In this document: one piece after another, positions 34,186 to 42,307 of the stretch | How the letters are laid out: each line of letters begins with the position of its first letter | Position numbering within the stretch: position 1 is the stretch's first letter | From: Cellulosilyticum lentocellum DSM 5427 | GTDB lineage: Bacteria; Bacillota; Clostridia; Lachnospirales; Cellulosilyticaceae | Direction: 5' to 3' | DNA: 64,000 nucleotides | NCBI RefSeq assembly: GCF_000178835.2 | Contig: NC_015275.1 | Span: 2,873,001-2,937,000, forward strand | The notes under the pieces: generated by a model | Database searches by the model: none | Seen by the model: only the letters and a program-made list of their open reading frames with translations | Told to the model about the DNA's origin: nothing | Translations under genes and position numbers: made by a program

Positions 34186-35700
34186 CTATACTTTCCCTTT
34201 AGGCATAGTTGCTGCAACACGCTTTTCCTGTGTCATATCAGCTAACTTTTTAATAGTTTCAAAATCAAGACCTAAGCATTCTGCAATAAGCTGCCCCATT
34301 TGATGATCTGCTTTATAAAACAAAGCTGTTTGGCGATATTGCAATGCAGGATCTGCATGTTTTAAGTTGTCGGTCACATTATAAATAAAGTGTGCTTTAT
34401 CATCACTGGTCATAGCTCTATAAAATTCACCAGGCTGCACAAAATCAGCATCTATGCTTTCAATAACATGTCTCTTAATTTCTCCTATTACAGGAATAGG
34501 CGGTGGTGCTACTTCAGGTGATACCACTACATTAACAAAACTACTAGGAAAATAATTCGGTACATTACCCATATTGCCATTAACCTGCATATTACCATCT
34601 CTTTGTGTAGTATATAAACAAGCTTTTGGTTTATTAATAGGAATTTGTGTATTGTTAGCACCTAAACGATAACGATGGGCATCTTCATAAGCCATTAATC
34701 TCGTTTGTAAAAGCTTATCTGGTGAAGTCCATATACCTGGTACAAAATGAGCTGGTGCAAAAGCTACTTGTTCTACTTCTGCAAAAAAATTGATGGGGTT
34801 TTTATTAAGTACAATCTTACCTAAAGGAATAAGTGGATGATCCTCTTCATACCATGTTTTCGTTACGTCAAAAGGATCTACGCGGTAATGGGCAGCTTCT
34901 TCTGGTGTCATGATTTGCACGCATACAGTCCACGAAGGATATTCTCCTCTTTCAATAGCGTTAAACAAATCTTGAACGGAATAATCTGGATTCTCACCTG
35001 CTATTTTTTCTGCTTCTGCTGCTGTAAAGTTTTTAATACCCTGATTCGTAAGCACATGATATTTTACCCAAACATATTCTCCTTTTTCATTGTACCACAT
35101 GAAGGTATGGCTACCGAAACCATCCATATGCCTAAATCCCATAGGTGTACCTAGATTAGAAAAAAGCCGCATCACTTGATGCAACGATTCTGGTGTTAAA
35201 GAAAGAAAATCCCAAAACATATTAGGGTCCTTTAAATTGGTTTGTGGATTTCTCTTTTGGGTATGAATAAAGTCTGGAAATTTAATACCATCTCTAATAA
35301 AGAAAATCGGTGTATTATTACCTACTAAGTCATAGTTACCATCCTCAGTATAAAACTTCATAGCGAAACCTCTAGGATCTCTAGCAGTATCAGCAGATCC
35401 CTTTTCACCACCTACTGTAGAAAAACGTATAAAAATATCCGTTCGTTTACCTACTTGATTTAAAAACTTTGCCATAGTGTACTTAGATAAATCATTGGTT
35501 ACCTCAAAATACCCATGAGCTCCTCCACCTTTAGCATGTACAACCCTTTCTGGAATACGCTCCCTATTAAAATGAGCTAGTTTTTCCTGCAAATAAGCAT
35601 CTGCCAGTAAATCAAAGCCTACTTTTTTTCCCGTACTTATAGCTGCTTGATCACTTGTAACTGGTATGGATACACTCGTTGTTAATTTATTTTCTTCCAT
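34186..35700 (-). CDS. katA: Monofunctional heme catalase, small-subunit clade (504 aa)
   Basis: It disproportionates hydrogen peroxide. Active-site residues are visible: His55 in VVHAKGGGAHG, Asn128 in LVGNNTP and the proximal heme-ligand Tyr in RLMAYEDAHRYRLG. Other family blocks include GFAMKFYTEDGNYD and DFIHTQKRNPQTN. Length and N-terminus match clade-3 catalases such as Bacillus KatA. A start at 35700 follows GGAGGAGGC. Heme catalase is not universal in obligate anaerobes, and it implies heme uptake or synthesis and exposure to oxygen. I see no convincing PerR box in the 120 bases upstream. Confidence 0.96.
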   Translation of the reverse strand: MEENKLTTSVSIPVTSDQAAISTGKKVGFDLLADAYLQEKLAHFNRERIPERVVHAKGGGAHGYFEVTNDLSKYTMAKFLNQVGKRTDIFIRFSTVGGEKGSADTARDPRGFAMKFYTEDGNYDLVGNNTPIFFIRDGIKFPDFIHTQKRNPQTNLKDPNMFWDFLSLTPESLHQVMRLFSNLGTPMGFRHMDGFGSHTFMWYNEKGEYVWVKYHVLTNQGIKNFTAAEAEKIAGENPDYSVQDLFNAIERGEYPSWTVCVQIMTPEEAAHYRVDPFDVTKTWYEEDHPLIPLGKIVLNKNPINFFAEVEQVAFAPAHFVPGIWTSPDKLLQTRLMAYEDAHRYRLGANNTQIPINKPKACLYTTQRDGNMQVNGNMGNVPNYFPSSFVNVVVSPEVAPPPIPVIGEIKRHVIESIDADFVQPGEFYRAMTSDDKAHFIYNVTDNLKHADPALQYRQTALFYKADHQMGQLIAECLGLDFETIKKLADMTQEKRVAATMPKGKV

Positions 35701-35825
35701 ACTGCCTCCTCCATTTTTATAAATAGCCCTCTTATTAGTTTATGAGGCTGAAGTAGTCTAATATGATGAAGTAATTATTAAAATTTTTAAAACATATTTA
35801 ATATTATTTTCTATTATGTTAAAAT

Positions 35826-36009
35826 AAATACAGGTGAGTTACTAAGATTTGTTCTGGTATCGAACCTCTTATTTTAATTATCGTACTGATTGCACAAGGG
35901 TTCGTCCCAAGTGGTAAGGCGGAGCATATGGAGACTTTATAGGAGCAAGGCCTTTTTAGGTACTACTTCTTCTTTTGCTATCCCTAGGCCTCTTGGCCTA
36001 GGGATTTTT
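35826..36009 (+). ncRNA. Candidate structured leader RNA of the hydrogenase-maturation operon
   Basis: About 180 transcribed-looking bases lie between a probable promoter (TTAAAATAAATA around 35818-35829) and a very strong intrinsic terminator at 35980-36009, all upstream of the first hyd gene. Inside are CGAACC (35861-35866) and GGTTCG (35899-35904), which can form a stem, and AGGCCT (35948-35953), which can pair with AGGCCT in the terminator's left arm (35986-35991) as a mutually exclusive antiterminator. AGAGGTTC (36042-36049), beyond the terminator, is complementary to GAACCTCT (35862-35869). I recognise no known riboswitch consensus. It may be a riboswitch, an attenuator or an independent small RNA. 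Confidence 0.5.
35980..36009 (+). terminator. Strong intrinsic terminator upstream of the hyd operon
   Basis: ATCCCTAGGCC (35980-35990) and GGCCTAGGGAT (35995-36005) form a perfect 11-bp stem with a 4-base loop, followed by TTTT at 36006-36009. No protein gene on this strand ends before it, so it terminates a leader or small RNA. Confidence 0.88.
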
Positions 36010-36104
36010 CGCTTTTATAACCTCTATTTTGTGTTTTGCTGAGAGGTTCAATCCACATCTTTTCAATTTTTTTATTTCATTTTAATAAGGAAAGGATATG
36101 AGAA

Positions 36105-36374
36105 ATGGAAACAAGAATTGCTTTAATTGGAATCATAGTAGAAAATAAAGATTCCGTAGAAAAAATCAATGGCATTTTACATGAGTATGGTGAACATATT
36201 GTAGGCCGAATGGGTGTGCCCTATAAACCTAAAAACGTTTCTGTGATTAGTGTCATTATAGATGCTCCTAATAGCGTGATTAGTGCTTTGTCAGGAAAAT
36301 TGGGGATGATTCCTCATGTCAACGTGAAGACCGTGTATTCAAAAATAAATGAACCTCTAGAAATGCAGGATTAA
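36105..36374 (+). CDS. TM1266-family [FeFe]-hydrogenase-associated putative regulator (89 aa)
   Basis: A small ACT/NikR-C-like ferredoxin-fold protein: METRIALIGIIVENKDSVEK, then YGEHIVGRMGVPYK and VSVISVIIDAPNSVISALSG. Members are found next to hydrogenase or hydrogenase-maturation genes and are annotated as iron-only hydrogenase system regulators, without proven DNA binding. It is first in the operon hydE-hydG-hydF, with three bases to the hydE start, and sits behind the structured leader. The start follows AAGGAAAGGATATGAGAA. Confidence 0.9.
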   Translation: METRIALIGIIVENKDSVEKINGILHEYGEHIVGRMGVPYKPKNVSVISVIIDAPNSVISALSGKLGMIPHVNVKTVYSKINEPLEMQD

Positions 36375-36377
36375 GTC

Positions 36378-37421
36378 ATGAAGGCCCTTATTGATATCCT
36401 TGCCAAAGAGCATCGTTTAAGTAAAGCAGACTACCTTCTCTTACTTACACACCACCAAGATGAAGACCTTTCTTCTTATCTCTTTGAAAAAGCAAGGCAA
36501 ACCGCTAATCATCTTTTTGGTCATCAGATTTATACCCGAGGCCTTATTGAATTTACTAACTACTGCAAGCAAGATTGTTACTATTGTGGCATTCGACGGA
36601 GTAATACTGAGGCTGCGCGCTATAGGCTTACTTTAGAAGACATTTTATCTTGCACTGAAATAGGTTATCACTTAGGCTTTCGTACCTTTGTTTTACAAGG
36701 TGGTGAAGATGGTCACTTTCAAGATGATACCATTTGTGATATTTTAACAGCTATCAAAAGTCAACATCCTAACTGCGCCATTACGCTTTCTATTGGTGAG
36801 AAAAGCCGCTTAAGCTATGAACGCTTTTTCAAAGCTGGTGCTGATCGTTACCTACTTCGTCATGAAACAGCTAATCTTGCTCATTATAGCCAACTTCACC
36901 CTGCTTCTCAAAGTCTAGAGCAAAGGAAACAATGTCTTTATGACCTGAAAGCTATTGGTTACCAAGTGGGTACCGGATTTATGGTAGGTTCACCTTATCA
37001 AACCTTTGATACGCTATGTGAAGACTTACTTTTCATCCAAGACTTTAAACCCCATATGGTAGGTATTGGCCCTTTTATTCCACATCAAGCTACCCCCTTT
37101 AAAGACCACTCTGCAGGCACCCTGTCACTTACTTTATTTTTAATTGGCCTTCTTAGACTCATCCTACCCAATGGATTAATCCCAGCTACTACAGCCCTGG
37201 GCACCATTGATCCTCAAGGCCGTGAAAAAGGCATTTTAGCCGGCGCTAATGTTGTCATGCCTAACCTTTCTCCGGTTGGCGTTCGTAAGAAATATAGTTT
37301 GTATAATAATAAAATATGTACAGGGGAAGAAGCTGCTGAGTGTTGGGCTTGTCTTAATAATCGTTTAAAACAAATCGGCTATAGCCTAGCTGTCAATCGT
37401 GGTGACTTCTCTCCTTTATAA
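36378..37421 (+). CDS. hydE: [FeFe]-hydrogenase H-cluster maturase HydE, radical SAM (347 aa)
   Basis: HydE is a radical-SAM enzyme that processes an organometallic precursor during assembly of the azadithiolate-bridged di-iron subcluster. The 4Fe-4S/SAM motif is Cys63-x3-Cys67-x2-Cys70 (CKQDCYYC), preceded by GLIEFTNY. LQGGEDG and LRHETAN mark SAM and substrate binding within a full TIM barrel. The C-terminal MPNLSPVGVRKKYSLYNNK segment is typical. It lies between the TM1266-type gene and hydG and is surely co-transcribed with both. Confidence 0.96.
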   Translation: MKALIDILAKEHRLSKADYLLLLTHHQDEDLSSYLFEKARQTANHLFGHQIYTRGLIEFTNYCKQDCYYCGIRRSNTEAARYRLTLEDILSCTEIGYHLGFRTFVLQGGEDGHFQDDTICDILTAIKSQHPNCAITLSIGEKSRLSYERFFKAGADRYLLRHETANLAHYSQLHPASQSLEQRKQCLYDLKAIGYQVGTGFMVGSPYQTFDTLCEDLLFIQDFKPHMVGIGPFIPHQATPFKDHSAGTLSLTLFLIGLLRLILPNGLIPATTALGTIDPQGREKGILAGANVVMPNLSPVGVRKKYSLYNNKICTGEEAAECWACLNNRLKQIGYSLAVNRGDFSPL

Positions 37422-37433
37422 AGGAGCGTTAAT

Positions 37434-38852
37434 ATGTATAATCCCAAATCTATGACTGCAACTGAATTCATTAATGATGAAGAAATTCTAGAAACCTTAG
37501 CTTATGCAGATGCTAACAAAACTAATAAAATCCTTATTAGTAGCATCATTAAAAAAGCTAAAGACTGTAAAGGCTTAAATCACCGTGAAGCCGCACTCCT
37601 TTTAGCTTGTGAGTTAGAAGAGGAAAACAAAGAAATTGAAGCTTTAGCTAAACAAATTAAACAACGTTTTTATGGTAATCGTATTGTTATGTTTGCCCCA
37701 CTTTACCTATCTAATTACTGTGTCAACGGCTGCATCTACTGTCCTTATCATCATAAAAACAAACATATTACTAGAAAAAAATTGACACAAGAAGAAATCA
37801 GAGCTGAAGTCATTGCCCTTCAGGACATGGGACATAAACGTCTTGCACTAGAAGCAGGTGAAGACCCTGCCAACAATCCACTAGATTACATCTTAGAAAG
37901 CATCAAAACCATTTATAGCATTAAGCATAAAAATGGTGCTATTAGACGTGTCAATGTCAATATTGCTGCCACCACCATAGAAAACTACCATAAATTAAAA
38001 GAAGCAGGTATTGGTACTTATATTCTTTTTCAAGAAACTTATCACAAAAAGAATTATGAAGCACTTCATCCTACTGGTCCTAAGCACGACTATGCTTATC
38101 ATACAGAAGCCATGGACAGAGCTATGGCTGGCGGCATTGATGATGTAGGACTTGGTGTTTTATTTGGTCTTAATAAGTATCGTTATGATTTTGTAGGCCT
38201 ACTTATGCATGCAGAACATTTAGAAGCAGTGCATGGTGTAGGTCCACATACCATTAGTGTTCCTCGTATTTGTCCTGCAGATGATATTAACCCTGATGAA
38301 TTCACCAATGCTATTTCTGATGACATCTTTGCTAAAATTGTGGCAGTTATTCGTATTGCTGTGCCTTATACAGGCATGATTATTTCTACTAGAGAATCTC
38401 CTAAAACTAGAAAGCGTGTATTAGAATTAGGAATTTCTCAAATTAGTGGTGGTTCTAGCACCAGTGTAGGTGGCTATGTCACTCCTGAAAAGGAAGAAGA
38501 AAACTCTGCTCAATTTGAATTAAGTGATACCCGCACATTGGATGAAATTGTAGGTTGGCTCTTAGAGCTTGGCTATATTCCAAGCTTTTGCACGGCTTGC
38601 TACAGAGAAGGCCGTACAGGAGATCGTTTTATGAGTCTTGTTAAATCTGGGCAAATTGCTAACTGCTGCGGACCTAATGCTCTTATGACATTGCAAGAAT
38701 ATCTAGAAGATTATGCTTCTCCTACAACTAAGGCAGCTGCAACCTCTATCATTGAAAGAGAACTTAAAACCATTACCAATCCAAAAGTTCTAGAAAAAGC
38801 AGTTAGCCAATTAAAAGCTATTCAAGGTGGAGCTAGGGATTTTAGATTTTAA
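37434..38852 (+). CDS. hydG: [FeFe]-hydrogenase maturase HydG, radical SAM tyrosine lyase (472 aa)
   Basis: HydG splits tyrosine to supply the CO and CN ligands of the H-cluster as an iron synthon. The radical-SAM motif is Cys96-x3-Cys100-x2-Cys103 (CVNGCIYC). The C-terminal region carries the second, auxiliary cluster motif (FCTACYREGRTGDRF, then NCCGPNALMT), which distinguishes HydG from the thiamine enzyme ThiH. LEAGEDPANNP and FQETYHKKNYEALHP are other conserved blocks. It starts 12 bases after hydE with AAGGAG ahead. Confidence 0.97.
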   Translation: MYNPKSMTATEFINDEEILETLAYADANKTNKILISSIIKKAKDCKGLNHREAALLLACELEEENKEIEALAKQIKQRFYGNRIVMFAPLYLSNYCVNGCIYCPYHHKNKHITRKKLTQEEIRAEVIALQDMGHKRLALEAGEDPANNPLDYILESIKTIYSIKHKNGAIRRVNVNIAATTIENYHKLKEAGIGTYILFQETYHKKNYEALHPTGPKHDYAYHTEAMDRAMAGGIDDVGLGVLFGLNKYRYDFVGLLMHAEHLEAVHGVGPHTISVPRICPADDINPDEFTNAISDDIFAKIVAVIRIAVPYTGMIISTRESPKTRKRVLELGISQISGGSSTSVGGYVTPEKEEENSAQFELSDTRTLDEIVGWLLELGYIPSFCTACYREGRTGDRFMSLVKSGQIANCCGPNALMTLQEYLEDYASPTTKAAATSIIERELKTITNPKVLEKAVSQLKAIQGGARDFRF

Positions 38853-38931: not shown

Positions 38932-40122
38932 ATGAGTTTGATGGATACTCCGAGAGCTAATCGTCTTCACATTGGCTTATATGGTAAAAGAAATAGTGGT
39001 AAGTCTTCTCTTATTAATGCTTTAACTGGTCAAGAAATTGCTTTAGTTTCCAAGGAAGCAGGTACTACCACTGACCCTGTTTATAAATCTATGGAGATTT
39101 ATGGTATAGGTCCTTGTGTCTTTATTGATACGGCTGGCTTTGATGATACTGGTTCCTTGGGCAAATTACGTGTTGAAAAGACTAAAGAAGCTACACAAAA
39201 GACAGATATTGCCCTTATTGTTTTTACCGATTCTGATTTAGCAGAAGAACTCAAATGGCTTCAGCACTTTAAAGCACAAGATACGCCTTTTATCCCTATT
39301 ATTAATAAAGTAGATACGTTAGAAAATAGGGATAGTCTTGCTGCTCAGATAGAAGCTACTTGTGGCATCTCCCCCATTTTAGTCAGTGCTAAAAATAAAG
39401 AAGGTATCGATGCTATTAAAGAAGCTATTATTCGTCTTTTACCAGAAGACTATGAAGTTAAGAGTATTACAGGACCTCTAGCTGCTCCTGGTGATTTAGT
39501 TTTACTTGTAATGCCTCAAGATATTCAAGCCCCTAAAGGCAGACTCATTCTTCCTCAAGTACAAACGCTTCGTGATCTACTAGATAAAAAGTGTTTAGTC
39601 ATGAGCTGTACCACCGACCAACTAGCTGCTACTTTAAAGGTATTAGCTAAAGCACCTGATTTAATTATTACAGACTCTCAGGTCTTTAAAACTGTTTACG
39701 ATCAAAAACCAAGTAGCAGTAAATTAACTTCTTTTTCTGTTTTATTCGCTGGTTATAAAGGTGACTTACAAACTTTTAAAAAAGGTGCCTATGCCATCGA
39801 TACTTTAACAGAAAACTCTAAAGTACTTATAGCTGAAGCTTGTACACACGCGCCTTTAAGTGAAGACATTGGCAGGGAAAAGCTTCCTCGCTTACTAAGG
39901 CAGAAAATAGGCTCCGGCCTTACTATTGATATTACTAGCGGTCCTCATTTTCCTTCTAAACTTGAAGGCTACGACCTCATCATTCACTGCGGCGGCTGTA
40001 TGTTTAACAGAAAATATGTGCTTTCACGCGTAGCCCAGGCCAAAGCCCTAAATATTCCTATTTCTAACTATGGTGTTGTCATTGCTTACTTATCAGGGAT
40101 TTTAGAACATATTGATGCATAA
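38932..40122 (+). CDS. hydF: [FeFe]-hydrogenase maturation GTPase/scaffold HydF (396 aa)
   Basis: HydF receives the di-iron precursor and delivers it to apo-hydrogenase. The GTPase domain has the P-loop GKRNSGKS (18-25), DTAGFDD for switch II and NKVD for guanine recognition. A dimerisation domain is followed by the Fe-S cluster domain with ACTHAPLSEDIGREKLPR and HCGGCMFNRK, containing the conserved Cys-x-His and Cys-x-x-Cys ligands. A gap of 79 bases after hydG, longer than others in the operon, may hold a weak internal promoter. The hydrogenase structural gene itself is not in this window. Confidence 0.96.
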   Translation: MSLMDTPRANRLHIGLYGKRNSGKSSLINALTGQEIALVSKEAGTTTDPVYKSMEIYGIGPCVFIDTAGFDDTGSLGKLRVEKTKEATQKTDIALIVFTDSDLAEELKWLQHFKAQDTPFIPIINKVDTLENRDSLAAQIEATCGISPILVSAKNKEGIDAIKEAIIRLLPEDYEVKSITGPLAAPGDLVLLVMPQDIQAPKGRLILPQVQTLRDLLDKKCLVMSCTTDQLAATLKVLAKAPDLIITDSQVFKTVYDQKPSSSKLTSFSVLFAGYKGDLQTFKKGAYAIDTLTENSKVLIAEACTHAPLSEDIGREKLPRLLRQKIGSGLTIDITSGPHFPSKLEGYDLIIHCGGCMFNRKYVLSRVAQAKALNIPISNYGVVIAYLSGILEHIDA

Positions 40123-40730: not shown

Positions 40731-40739
40731 ATGTTGTAC

Positions 40740-41420
40740 ATGGCAAACATTGGAGTATTTGACGTCTTAGGCCCTATTATGATTGGTCCCTCCTCATCGC
40801 ATACAGCAGGAGCAGCTAGACTTGGAAAGATCGCTAGAACTATCGTTAATAAACCTATTAAAGAGGTCAACTTTTTACTTCACGGCTCTTTTAGCCAAAC
40901 TTATAAAGGACACGGTACAGACCGTGCACTTGTTGCAGGAATCTTAGGCATGAATCCTGATGATGCTCGCCTTAGAGATTCACTCACTCTCGCAAAGGAA
41001 GCAGGCATTAAAATTACTTTTACCCCAACGGATTTAGGACAAGTTCACCCGAATACAGTTAAATTCCTTATAACAGATGGAGAAGGCATTCACTGGGAAG
41101 TTCTTGGTTCATCTATTGGTGGTGGGCTTGTAGAAATCCACGAAATCAATGGTAATAAAGTTCAAATCACGGGTGAATACCCAACAGTTATCACTTGCCA
41201 CAATGATATTCCTGGTACAGTTGCTAAAATCTCTAGCTTATTTTATGAGAAACAAATTAATATTGCTTTTATGAAACTAGTGAGAAGTCAAAAAGGTAAA
41301 GGTGCTACTATGACTTTCGAAGTAGATCATAGCATTCCGGAAGATATTATTTCTGAAATCAAAAATGTAGATGGTATTAACCGCGTTATTGTCATTAATC
41401 AGCTAGGAGGTGTTTCATAA
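40740..41420 (+). CDS. sdaAB: L-serine dehydratase, iron-sulfur-dependent, beta subunit
   Basis: The beta subunit of the two-part Fe-S enzyme that deaminates L-serine to pyruvate and ammonia. Landmarks are FDVLGPIMIGPSSSHTAGAA, FLLHGSFSQTYKGHGTDRAL and a C-terminal ACT domain (TVITCHNDIPGTVAKISSLF). Of two close in-frame ATG codons, the one at 40740 has AAGGGA at suitable distance, whereas 40731 touches it. The stop overlaps the start of sdaAA (TAATG). Length 226 aa is normal. The ACT domain may bind serine as a sensor. Confidence 0.96.
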   Translation: MANIGVFDVLGPIMIGPSSSHTAGAARLGKIARTIVNKPIKEVNFLLHGSFSQTYKGHGTDRALVAGILGMNPDDARLRDSLTLAKEAGIKITFTPTDLGQVHPNTVKFLITDGEGIHWEVLGSSIGGGLVEIHEINGNKVQITGEYPTVITCHNDIPGTVAKISSLFYEKQINIAFMKLVRSQKGKGATMTFEVDHSIPEDIISEIKNVDGINRVIVINQLGGVS

Positions 41421-42307
41421 TGAGGATTGCTAAATCAGGAAAAGAACTTATCGAAATCTGTAAAGAAGAACAAATCACTTTAAGCGAATATGCAATTCGT
41501 ACAGAAATGGAAAGCAAAGAAGTTTCTAGAGAAACTTTAATGACTCAAATGGGTGCTACTTTAGCTGTGATGAGAGAAGGTGCTACACTAGGTCGTGAAA
41601 AAGAAGTATATTCTTTAAGTGGTCTTATTGGTGGTGATGCTTATCGCTTACAACAATACCTTAACTCAGGGAAATCTTTGATGGGTAATGGCATTATTAA
41701 AGCCATGGCTATGGCTATTTCTTCTTCGGAAGTGAATGGTTCTATGGGTAAGATTGTAGCTTGTCCTACTGCTGGTTCATGTGGCATTCTTCCCGCTGTT
41801 ATTTTAACTGCTGGCGAGCAGCTTGGACAAAGTGATGAAGAAATGATTCAAGGTTTATTTGCCGCTTCTGCCATTGGTATGATTATCGGTATGAATGCAA
41901 CTTTCGCTGGTGCTGAAGGCGGTTGTCAAGCTGAATGTGGTTCTGCTGCTGCTATGGCTGCAGGCGCAGTTGTAGAAATGATGGGTGGCACACCTGAAAT
42001 GAGCTTAGATGCAGCTGCCATCATCTTTAAAAATGTACTTGGACTTGTTTGTGATCCAGTTGCTGGCCTAGTGGAAATTCCATGTGCTAAAAGAAATGTA
42101 TCAGGTGCCATCAATGCCCTTTCAACAGCAGATATGGTCATGGCTGGTGTTAATTCAAAAATTCCTTTTGATGATGCGCTATCAGCCATGTATAAGGTAG
42201 GTCTTGGACTTCCTGAAGAATTAAGGGAAACCGCTCTAGGTGGTGTAGCTATTACACCAACAGGTAAGGCCCTTAAAGAAAAAGTATTTGGAAAAACTGA
42301 TAACTAA
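41420..42307 (+). CDS. sdaAA: L-serine dehydratase, iron-sulfur-dependent, alpha subunit
   Basis: The catalytic alpha subunit that binds the 4Fe-4S cluster which activates the serine hydroxyl. Conserved blocks are SSSEVNGSMGKIVACPTAGS, GILPAVILT, GAEGGCQAECGSAAAMAAGA and LGLVCDPVAGLVEIPCAKRN; the cysteines in these blocks are cluster ligands. It is full length at 295 aa and is translationally coupled to sdaAB by a one-base overlap. A permease-like gene follows 41 bases downstream. Confidence 0.97.
   Translation: MRIAKSGKELIEICKEEQITLSEYAIRTEMESKEVSRETLMTQMGATLAVMREGATLGREKEVYSLSGLIGGDAYRLQQYLNSGKSLMGNGIIKAMAMAISSSEVNGSMGKIVACPTAGSCGILPAVILTAGEQLGQSDEEMIQGLFAASAIGMIIGMNATFAGAEGGCQAECGSAAAMAAGAVVEMMGGTPEMSLDAAAIIFKNVLGLVCDPVAGLVEIPCAKRNVSGAINALSTADMVMAGVNSKIPFDDALSAMYKVGLGLPEELRETALGGVAITPTGKALKEKVFGKTDN

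Follow-up and report, generated by a model that had tools for sequence, protein, structure and literature searches.

A conserved and apparently undescribed family of leader RNAs with a switch-like build, given the working name hyd leader motif, stands ahead of the [FeFe]-hydrogenase maturation genes, and of one type of importer, in many Clostridia. One member lies on the plus strand at 35832-36009 of the 64,000-nucleotide stretch of Cellulosilyticum lentocellum DSM 5427 analyzed here (henceforth the window), where a hairpin (HP1), a core hairpin, an antiterminator and a terminator precede TM1266-hydE-hydG-hydF. The finding consists mainly in the two conserved, covarying hairpins, which the first-pass annotation of this DNA had missed. 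Much biological hydrogen production is catalyzed at the [FeFe]-hydrogenase active site, and how bacteria control its assembly is, to our knowledge, an open question; we also know of no target for TM1266, a protein labeled "putative regulator". An attenuator before the maturation genes in many clostridial families is a handle on H-cluster control and on TM1266, and the element can be tested in carriers amenable to laboratory culture, Clostridium beijerinckii and Acetobacterium species.

Profile matches bore out the earlier reading of the operon as one for [FeFe]-hydrogenase maturation. Its first gene encodes a TM1266-family protein of 89 residues (36105-36374; TIGR03959, 113.4 bits against a cut-off of 60.8; PF21699) and is followed on the same plus strand by hydE (36378-37421; TIGR03956, 568.4 bits), hydG (37434-38852; TIGR03955, 921.6 bits) and hydF (38932-40122; TIGR03918, 544.2 bits). 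After the hyd operon, 40731-42307 of the window holds two ORFs that, judged by reading their sequence, resemble L-serine dehydratase subunits.

All elements of the leader lie on the plus strand. HP1 (35832-35867) consists of stem P1 (35832-35835 with 35864-35867), a GA/GA internal loop and stem P2 (35838-35842 with 35857-35861), which has a single T-T mismatch in the window. The core hairpin (35881-35922), recognized by two covariance models (R1 and R3), is closed by P0 (35881-35883 with 35920-35922) and carries a CUGA stretch (35886-35889), P3a (35893-35895 with 35911-35913), an AA/AA loop, P3b (35898-35900 with 35906-35908) and an AAGG stretch (35916-35919). Both hairpins show covariation and belong to the minimum free energy (MFE) folds of RNAs ending at 35924 and 36008, where P0 forms two of its three pairs; HP1 in addition passed a held-out model test. 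The perfect 11-bp terminator stem noticed before is indeed there (35980-36005), and with the U tract behind it forms an intrinsic terminator at 35980-36009. The leader segment is more structured than shuffled sequence (MFE -56.6, z -2.19; 3 of 200 shuffles fold as well). The promoter-like sequence is present too, as a predicted TTAATA-16-TAAAAT with a TG at 35798-35825 that would place the transcript start at about P1, but the scan alone proves nothing, since 3 kb of sequence held 9 matches of this kind where 10.4 would be expected.

Relatives of the leader were poorly reached by BLAST, because the element drifts fast: with the 279-bp segment as query against the 24 genomes of the host's family, the only matches besides the window were of 28-35 bases in three genomes, and these fell on a T-rich stretch preceding the start codon. 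The TIGR03959 profile picked up TM1266 in 9 of the 24 genomes, in 8 of them above the cut-off, and a common pattern was seen upstream of it in several loci of the family. We also scanned public genomes for HydG, took the best 80 loci and read their upstream regions; TM1266 was found in 47 of these best 80, where many leaders were clearer. The core that emerged reads roughly ATCGTNCTGA-stem-GA-GGGTTNGTCCC-AA-stem-NAAGGCG and is a hairpin of about 46 nt.

From these leaders we built a core model (R1; 18 sequences, 47 positions), a model of HP1 alone (R2; 29 sequences) and a broader core model (R3; 40 sequences). Searching 97 sources with R1 at E up to 10 yielded 36 matches, of which 22 scored at least 37.6 bits and the next 15.6; those 22 are the 18 training sequences, the window once more (as L001) and three new sequences. 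Among the sources with R1 matches are Clostridium magnum, C. beijerinckii HUN142, C. chromiireducens, C. puniceum, C. neonatale and three Acetobacterium species. The window itself scores 60.1 bits with R1 and 47.5 with R3, being in both training sets, and its whole genome (one 4.7-Mb contig) yielded R1 matches of 60.1 and 15.1 bits. R1 matched in 40 of the 392 genomes of a class sample and 12 of the 398 of a phylum sample. With R3 (E up to 0.01), 70 of the 392 genomes in the even class sample had matches, 75 in all; at least 19 of the 75 belong to the training set or have the same sequence as a member of it. As a check of specificity, no match was found in 22 non-Clostridia genomes that had been reached via hyd-bearing loci (by title Bacteroidota, Alphaproteobacteria or other proteobacteria, and Victivallis), while all four positive controls matched. 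The covariance-model search that had been proposed earlier thus found conservation upstream of hyd operons in other clostridia, with covarying stems, and the idea survived it.

Membership was decided by gene context. We set aside as chance the matches with no hyd or importer gene (L134, L135, L139, L149, L161, L162 and L164), likewise those in G234, G256 (two), G129, G378, G320 and G380 C67, and excluded the match at a contig end in G384, whereas another at a contig end (L146) was retained. Four g5-type leaders (L007, L008, L014 and L011), unmatched by R1 and out of register by one in the A6 alignment, were kept in, and the counts are therefore lower. One of the matches set aside (L134 1524-1571, G375) reaches 33.8 bits with R3 with no hyd or importer gene nearby, and is either chance or an unusual member. 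Core matches of 13-14 bits at L178 5278-5318 and L179 5071-5111 (minus strand) precede TM1266-importer operons in G104 and G404; they are probably diverged members, outside the counts, and L179 shows an apparent GGAAGG/CCTTCC antiterminator. Two genomes have a second TM1266-hydF operon (L173, L174) whose upstream sequence resembles a strongly diverged core with a terminator, and upstream of which R3 gave no match.

On the first core alignment RNAalifold by itself found no pairs; we therefore proposed structures manually and put them to the test afterwards. Among the 40 core sequences, 85.0% of the cells are paired against 73.3% in shuffled alignments (0 of 500 shuffles as high), and 50 cells are changed on both sides against 15.3; the number of pairs with such changes (7) is not special, being reached by 88 of 500 shuffles. 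One P0 pair is C-G in 26 sequences, U-A in nine, U-G in one and unpaired in four. The leader thus has the conserved, covarying, aptamer-like fold expected of a riboswitch.

In HP1, stems P1 and P2 are separated by a 2x2 loop, commonly GA/AA or GA/GA, and a distal stem follows. In the 29 sequences, 88.7% of the cells are paired against 63.7% in shuffles (0 of 500 as high), the covariation score is 0.657 against 0.235 and falls to 0.238 at most when the partners are slid, and 9 of 10 consensus pairs show compensatory changes, a number equaled by 22 of 500 shuffles. These figures are inflated, since the ends of HP1 were chosen by eye for complementarity; the sequences, too, were picked by eye from 61 leaders, three of which were later dropped as chance. 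Fairer evidence comes from the held-out test of R2 on 42 loci unused in building it. There were 25 matches at E up to 10, and 23 of them, in 23 loci, lie within about 125 nt upstream of a core on the same strand; the remaining two lie elsewhere (L143, L152). Some of the loci (L032, L118) are close to training loci and L082 equals L109 in sequence, leaving 22 distinct.

None of the 25 held-out matches lay on a core itself. In 36 further loci, R2 gave 18 matches, seven on the core, five upstream of a core (one being the site already seen as L152) and six elsewhere. The seven on the core comprise three from one genus (L188, L189, L190), two from Acetobacterium-type genomes (L193, L194), L192 and L208. 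Because R2 matches cores and the two alignments share the pattern UGA-stem-AAAG...CUGA-stem-AAA, HP1 and core look like related hairpin modules in series, with HP1 present in many leaders, including that of the window. A simply scored scan for the single best site, run with no control, placed the end of the -10 match 43-65 nt ahead of the core in 20 of the 29 HP1-alignment leaders; for importer operons (see below) the distance was 1-24 nt in 16 of 17 leaders. Leaders of the latter kind would therefore have little room for HP1, and we read the core as the minimal unit.

The earlier view of the leader extended to the hyd operon alone and did not foresee a second operon type, in which TM1266 is linked to an ABC importer. 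Of R3's 75 contexts in the class sample, 54 lie before hyd maturation genes, mostly with TM1266 first, and 11 before the TM1266-linked importer (TM1266, binding protein, permease and ATPase, with not every gene detected in each of the 11). One precedes a different ABC importer (G168), one sits at the contig edge (G384), and eight have neither hyd nor importer gene and are taken as chance, about four being expected from rough E-values. The 66 hyd or importer contexts span 26 families, and TM1266 is the first hyd or importer gene behind the RNA in 61 of them, with other short genes possible in between. Within single genomes the RNA can precede both operon types (G691, G749, G808 and, in the class sample, G332). 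Across the 38 genomes of the class of G749, 15 matches were found in 11 genomes, six before hyd genes, five before the importer, one at a contig end and three before neither. In G404 and G292, an aspartate ammonia-lyase-like gene (named from its N-terminus) and then hydF lie behind the leader. The importer's binding protein belongs to the SsuA/NMT1 group; among solved structures 3hn0, named a "nitrate transport protein", is nearest to it. Behind the importer of G802 lies a HydE-like radical-SAM gene that scores 193 bits, under the 254.6 required for HydE, and similarity alone points to such a gene at this place in G801 and G098. This second regulon, with a nitrate/sulfonate-type binding protein and some HydE-like neighbors, would tie a transported compound to hydrogenase biology.

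Most members carry a terminator. It lies within 230 nt downstream in 88 of the 97 listed, whereas only 28% of 1940 shuffles have one, and the AAGG stretch joins the 5' arm or loop of the terminator by at least five contiguous pairs (G-U allowed) in 80 of the 97, against 36% of the terminators in shuffles; this list includes near-identical relatives. After removal of identical cores (100 distinct among 106, 89 of them with a terminator), RNAfold joined AAGG to the arm of the terminator in 69 of the 89 nascent RNAs, compared with 61 of 445 for shuffled controls. The simple nascent fold lacks the antiterminator in the other 20, the complete terminator hairpin forms in the simple full fold of 69 of 89 and is absent in 20, and both states are seen in 54. 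The leader thus combines a terminator between itself and the first gene with a conserved, mutually exclusive antiterminator pairing, as an attenuator would.

In the window, the antiterminator is the MFE fold of the RNA ending at 35994. Its 5' strand (35909-35926) contains the AAGGC that is common to core P0, and its 3' strand (35976-35994) overlaps the 5' arm and loop of the terminator. The first-pass annotation had proposed a pairing with the terminator arm, and such a pairing is conserved, but the strand engaged is AAGGC at 35916-35920, not AGGCCT at about 35948; in the nascent RNA, A35917-G35919 faces 35983-35985 in the 5' arm. A second complementarity proposed to span the terminator, GAACCTCT/AGAGGTTC, is present in the sequence, but we rejected it, since 32 of 200 shuffles contain an equally long match. 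The MFE fold of the window RNA is HP1 plus core at 35924, whereas at 35960 and 35978 other folds win. At 35994 the antiterminator is preferred (in silico, -36.4 kcal/mol when free against -33.4 with the core forced), and at 36008 HP1, core and terminator coexist. Core and terminator are thus compatible, while core and antiterminator exclude one another, as both need AAGGC.

Computation therefore finds conserved sequence, covarying stems, a constant gene context, terminators across Clostridia and mutually exclusive pairings, which strongly supports the proposal that the leader is structured, acts in cis and switches between terminator and antiterminator. We are highly confident that the segment is a cis-acting transcription attenuator, whatever its sensor. 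As to the sensor, we incline to a direct small-ligand riboswitch of the OFF type, with its polarity, the existence of an effector and direct binding by the RNA all inferred. The 3' side of the core (AAGGC) would be used either in the core fold or in the antiterminator with the 5' arm of the terminator. An effector that stabilizes the core would hold AAGGC, so that no antiterminator forms, the terminator does, and TM1266-hydE-hydG-hydF is not transcribed; without the effector, the antiterminator would win and the operon would be read. In the modeled energies, about 3 kcal/mol would be left for the effector to supply. Our leading candidate for the effector is a small ligand to which the RNA itself binds, and it might report on H-cluster assembly or on the cargo of the TM1266-linked importer. 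Assembly genes and an importer under one leader are the usual riboswitch pattern, and this pairing, along with a compact fold with conserved internal-loop bases, fits direct ligand binding, a reading that we hold to be somewhat more likely than not.

The OFF polarity is argued from the core coexisting with the terminator and excluding the antiterminator. It comes from pairing only, and cotranscriptional behavior can differ, so that the same attenuator might work in the opposite sense, with effector binding leading to readthrough; such an ON switch is improbable given that core and antiterminator contest AAGGC and that core and terminator coexist in the MFE fold of the window. The main rival sensor is TM1266. 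As with PyrR, the protein, either alone or loaded with a metal or ligand, might bind the core and drive termination or antitermination of both operons. The pyr attenuators governed by PyrR have the regulator gene first, also control a transporter, and choose among a protein-binding hairpin, an antiterminator and a terminator; the hyd leader would be similar, with TM1266, a putative regulator, usually encoded first behind it, an importer operon also under the leader and a comparable three-way choice, while TM1266 belongs to another protein family and the RNA sequence differs. TM1266 leads in two otherwise different operon types, occurs in 50 of the 51 RNA-positive genomes examined, and is present in those genomes where the RNA precedes hydE or a transporter without TM1266 (G332, G691, G749, G808). 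Its predicted fold (mean pLDDT 93.5) is closest to Thermotoga TM1266 (2nzc), then to the metal-binding regulatory domain of NikR, followed by IlvN and ACT-type domains, and its 89 residues leave no room for a DNA-binding domain.

Against TM1266 as the sensor, its co-occurrence with the RNA is confounded by their common membership in the hyd system, and it is found in 237 of the 392 class genomes, of which only 63 (a lower bound, given the strict filters of R3) have the RNA in context; the hyd system therefore does not need the RNA. One genome (G812, 89% complete) has the RNA, and TM1266 was not found in it. We also know of no RNA-binding activity in the NikR/ACT-like fold family. We regard it as possible, though doubtful, that TM1266 loaded with a metal or an H-cluster-related ligand reads the core and switches the H-cluster assembly operon together with a dedicated importer. 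If it did, [FeFe]-hydrogenase maturation would be under feedback control by a protein-RNA circuit, and the lack of a DNA-binding domain in this "putative regulator" would be accounted for. Sensing of a ligand by the RNA, the reading we prefer, and sensing by TM1266 can be combined.

Since the leader's anatomy predicts a short terminated transcript, it could also be an independent small RNA, as the first-pass annotation had offered for choice, or a 5' UTR that does not regulate the hyd genes. This is very unlikely because the element keeps its position before the same genes, with the antiterminator pairing preserved across the 66 class-sample contexts in 26 families, and the upstream neighbor, a catalase gene, lies on the opposite strand. 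Scarcely any weight falls on the leader being a diverged representative of an established riboswitch class, be it Moco/Wco, SAM, T-box or NiCo/iron. Moco/Wco RNAs are reported to lie upstream of hydrogenase complexes or genes (PMC5651825; PMC9481103), but a cmscan with Rfam 15 put no related family at the leader. At gathering threshold no family (Moco, SAM, T-box, NiCo or others) matched there, and the only match in the window was a tRNA. A search of 35700-36150 with all 4227 families at E up to 10 gave six weak, unrelated matches only. Seven loci, six with the leader, had no match at E up to 1, and ten more, six with an R1 match, gave only raiA and two tRNAs at gathering threshold.

In the portions of the literature open to our search, the element is not described (PMC8632094, PMC7266159, PMC5651825, PMC6239172, PMC5640608, PMC9481103, PMC10418091, PMC2965389, PMC5209896); supplements and subscription papers were outside its scope, and the element may be an unnamed entry in a large candidate catalogue. 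It is a new family among the attenuator or riboswitch-candidate leaders, itself a known kind, and its regulon is unusual. Orphan riboswitch candidates include the thiS/HMP-PP, NMT1/xanthine and folE/THF-II motifs (PMC7266159). The hyd leader resembles these in having a compact conserved structure before biosynthesis genes or a transporter and, like the thiS motif, a terminator; unlike them, it has no Rfam match, contains two related hairpin modules and is tied to [FeFe]-hydrogenase maturation. With the Moco RNA motif (PMC5651825) it shares a place before hydrogenase-related genes in anaerobes, but the Moco model does not match it, and the Moco motif precedes a hydrogenase complex rather than maturation genes. 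As in tandem riboswitches (PMC9481103), two related modules stand in series in many leaders, except that in the hyd leader the second (HP1) is optional and diverged.

Other leaders and paralogues were seen along the way. A different common leader (approximately GCTCAANGCGGAAATTNNATTGACGCCGAGACC), possibly another regulatory RNA, lies ahead of TM1266 in L084, L089, L094 and L097, and a long common leader unlike the hyd leader lies upstream of TM1266 in L055 and L081, with no Rfam match at gathering threshold in L055. At L176 976-3982, a TM1266 paralogue, at which R3 found no leader, lies directly before nadB- and nadC-like genes (named from the start of their sequences). In one Acetobacterium locus (L042 7317-7520), a raiA RNA lies about 4.9 kb downstream of the leader.
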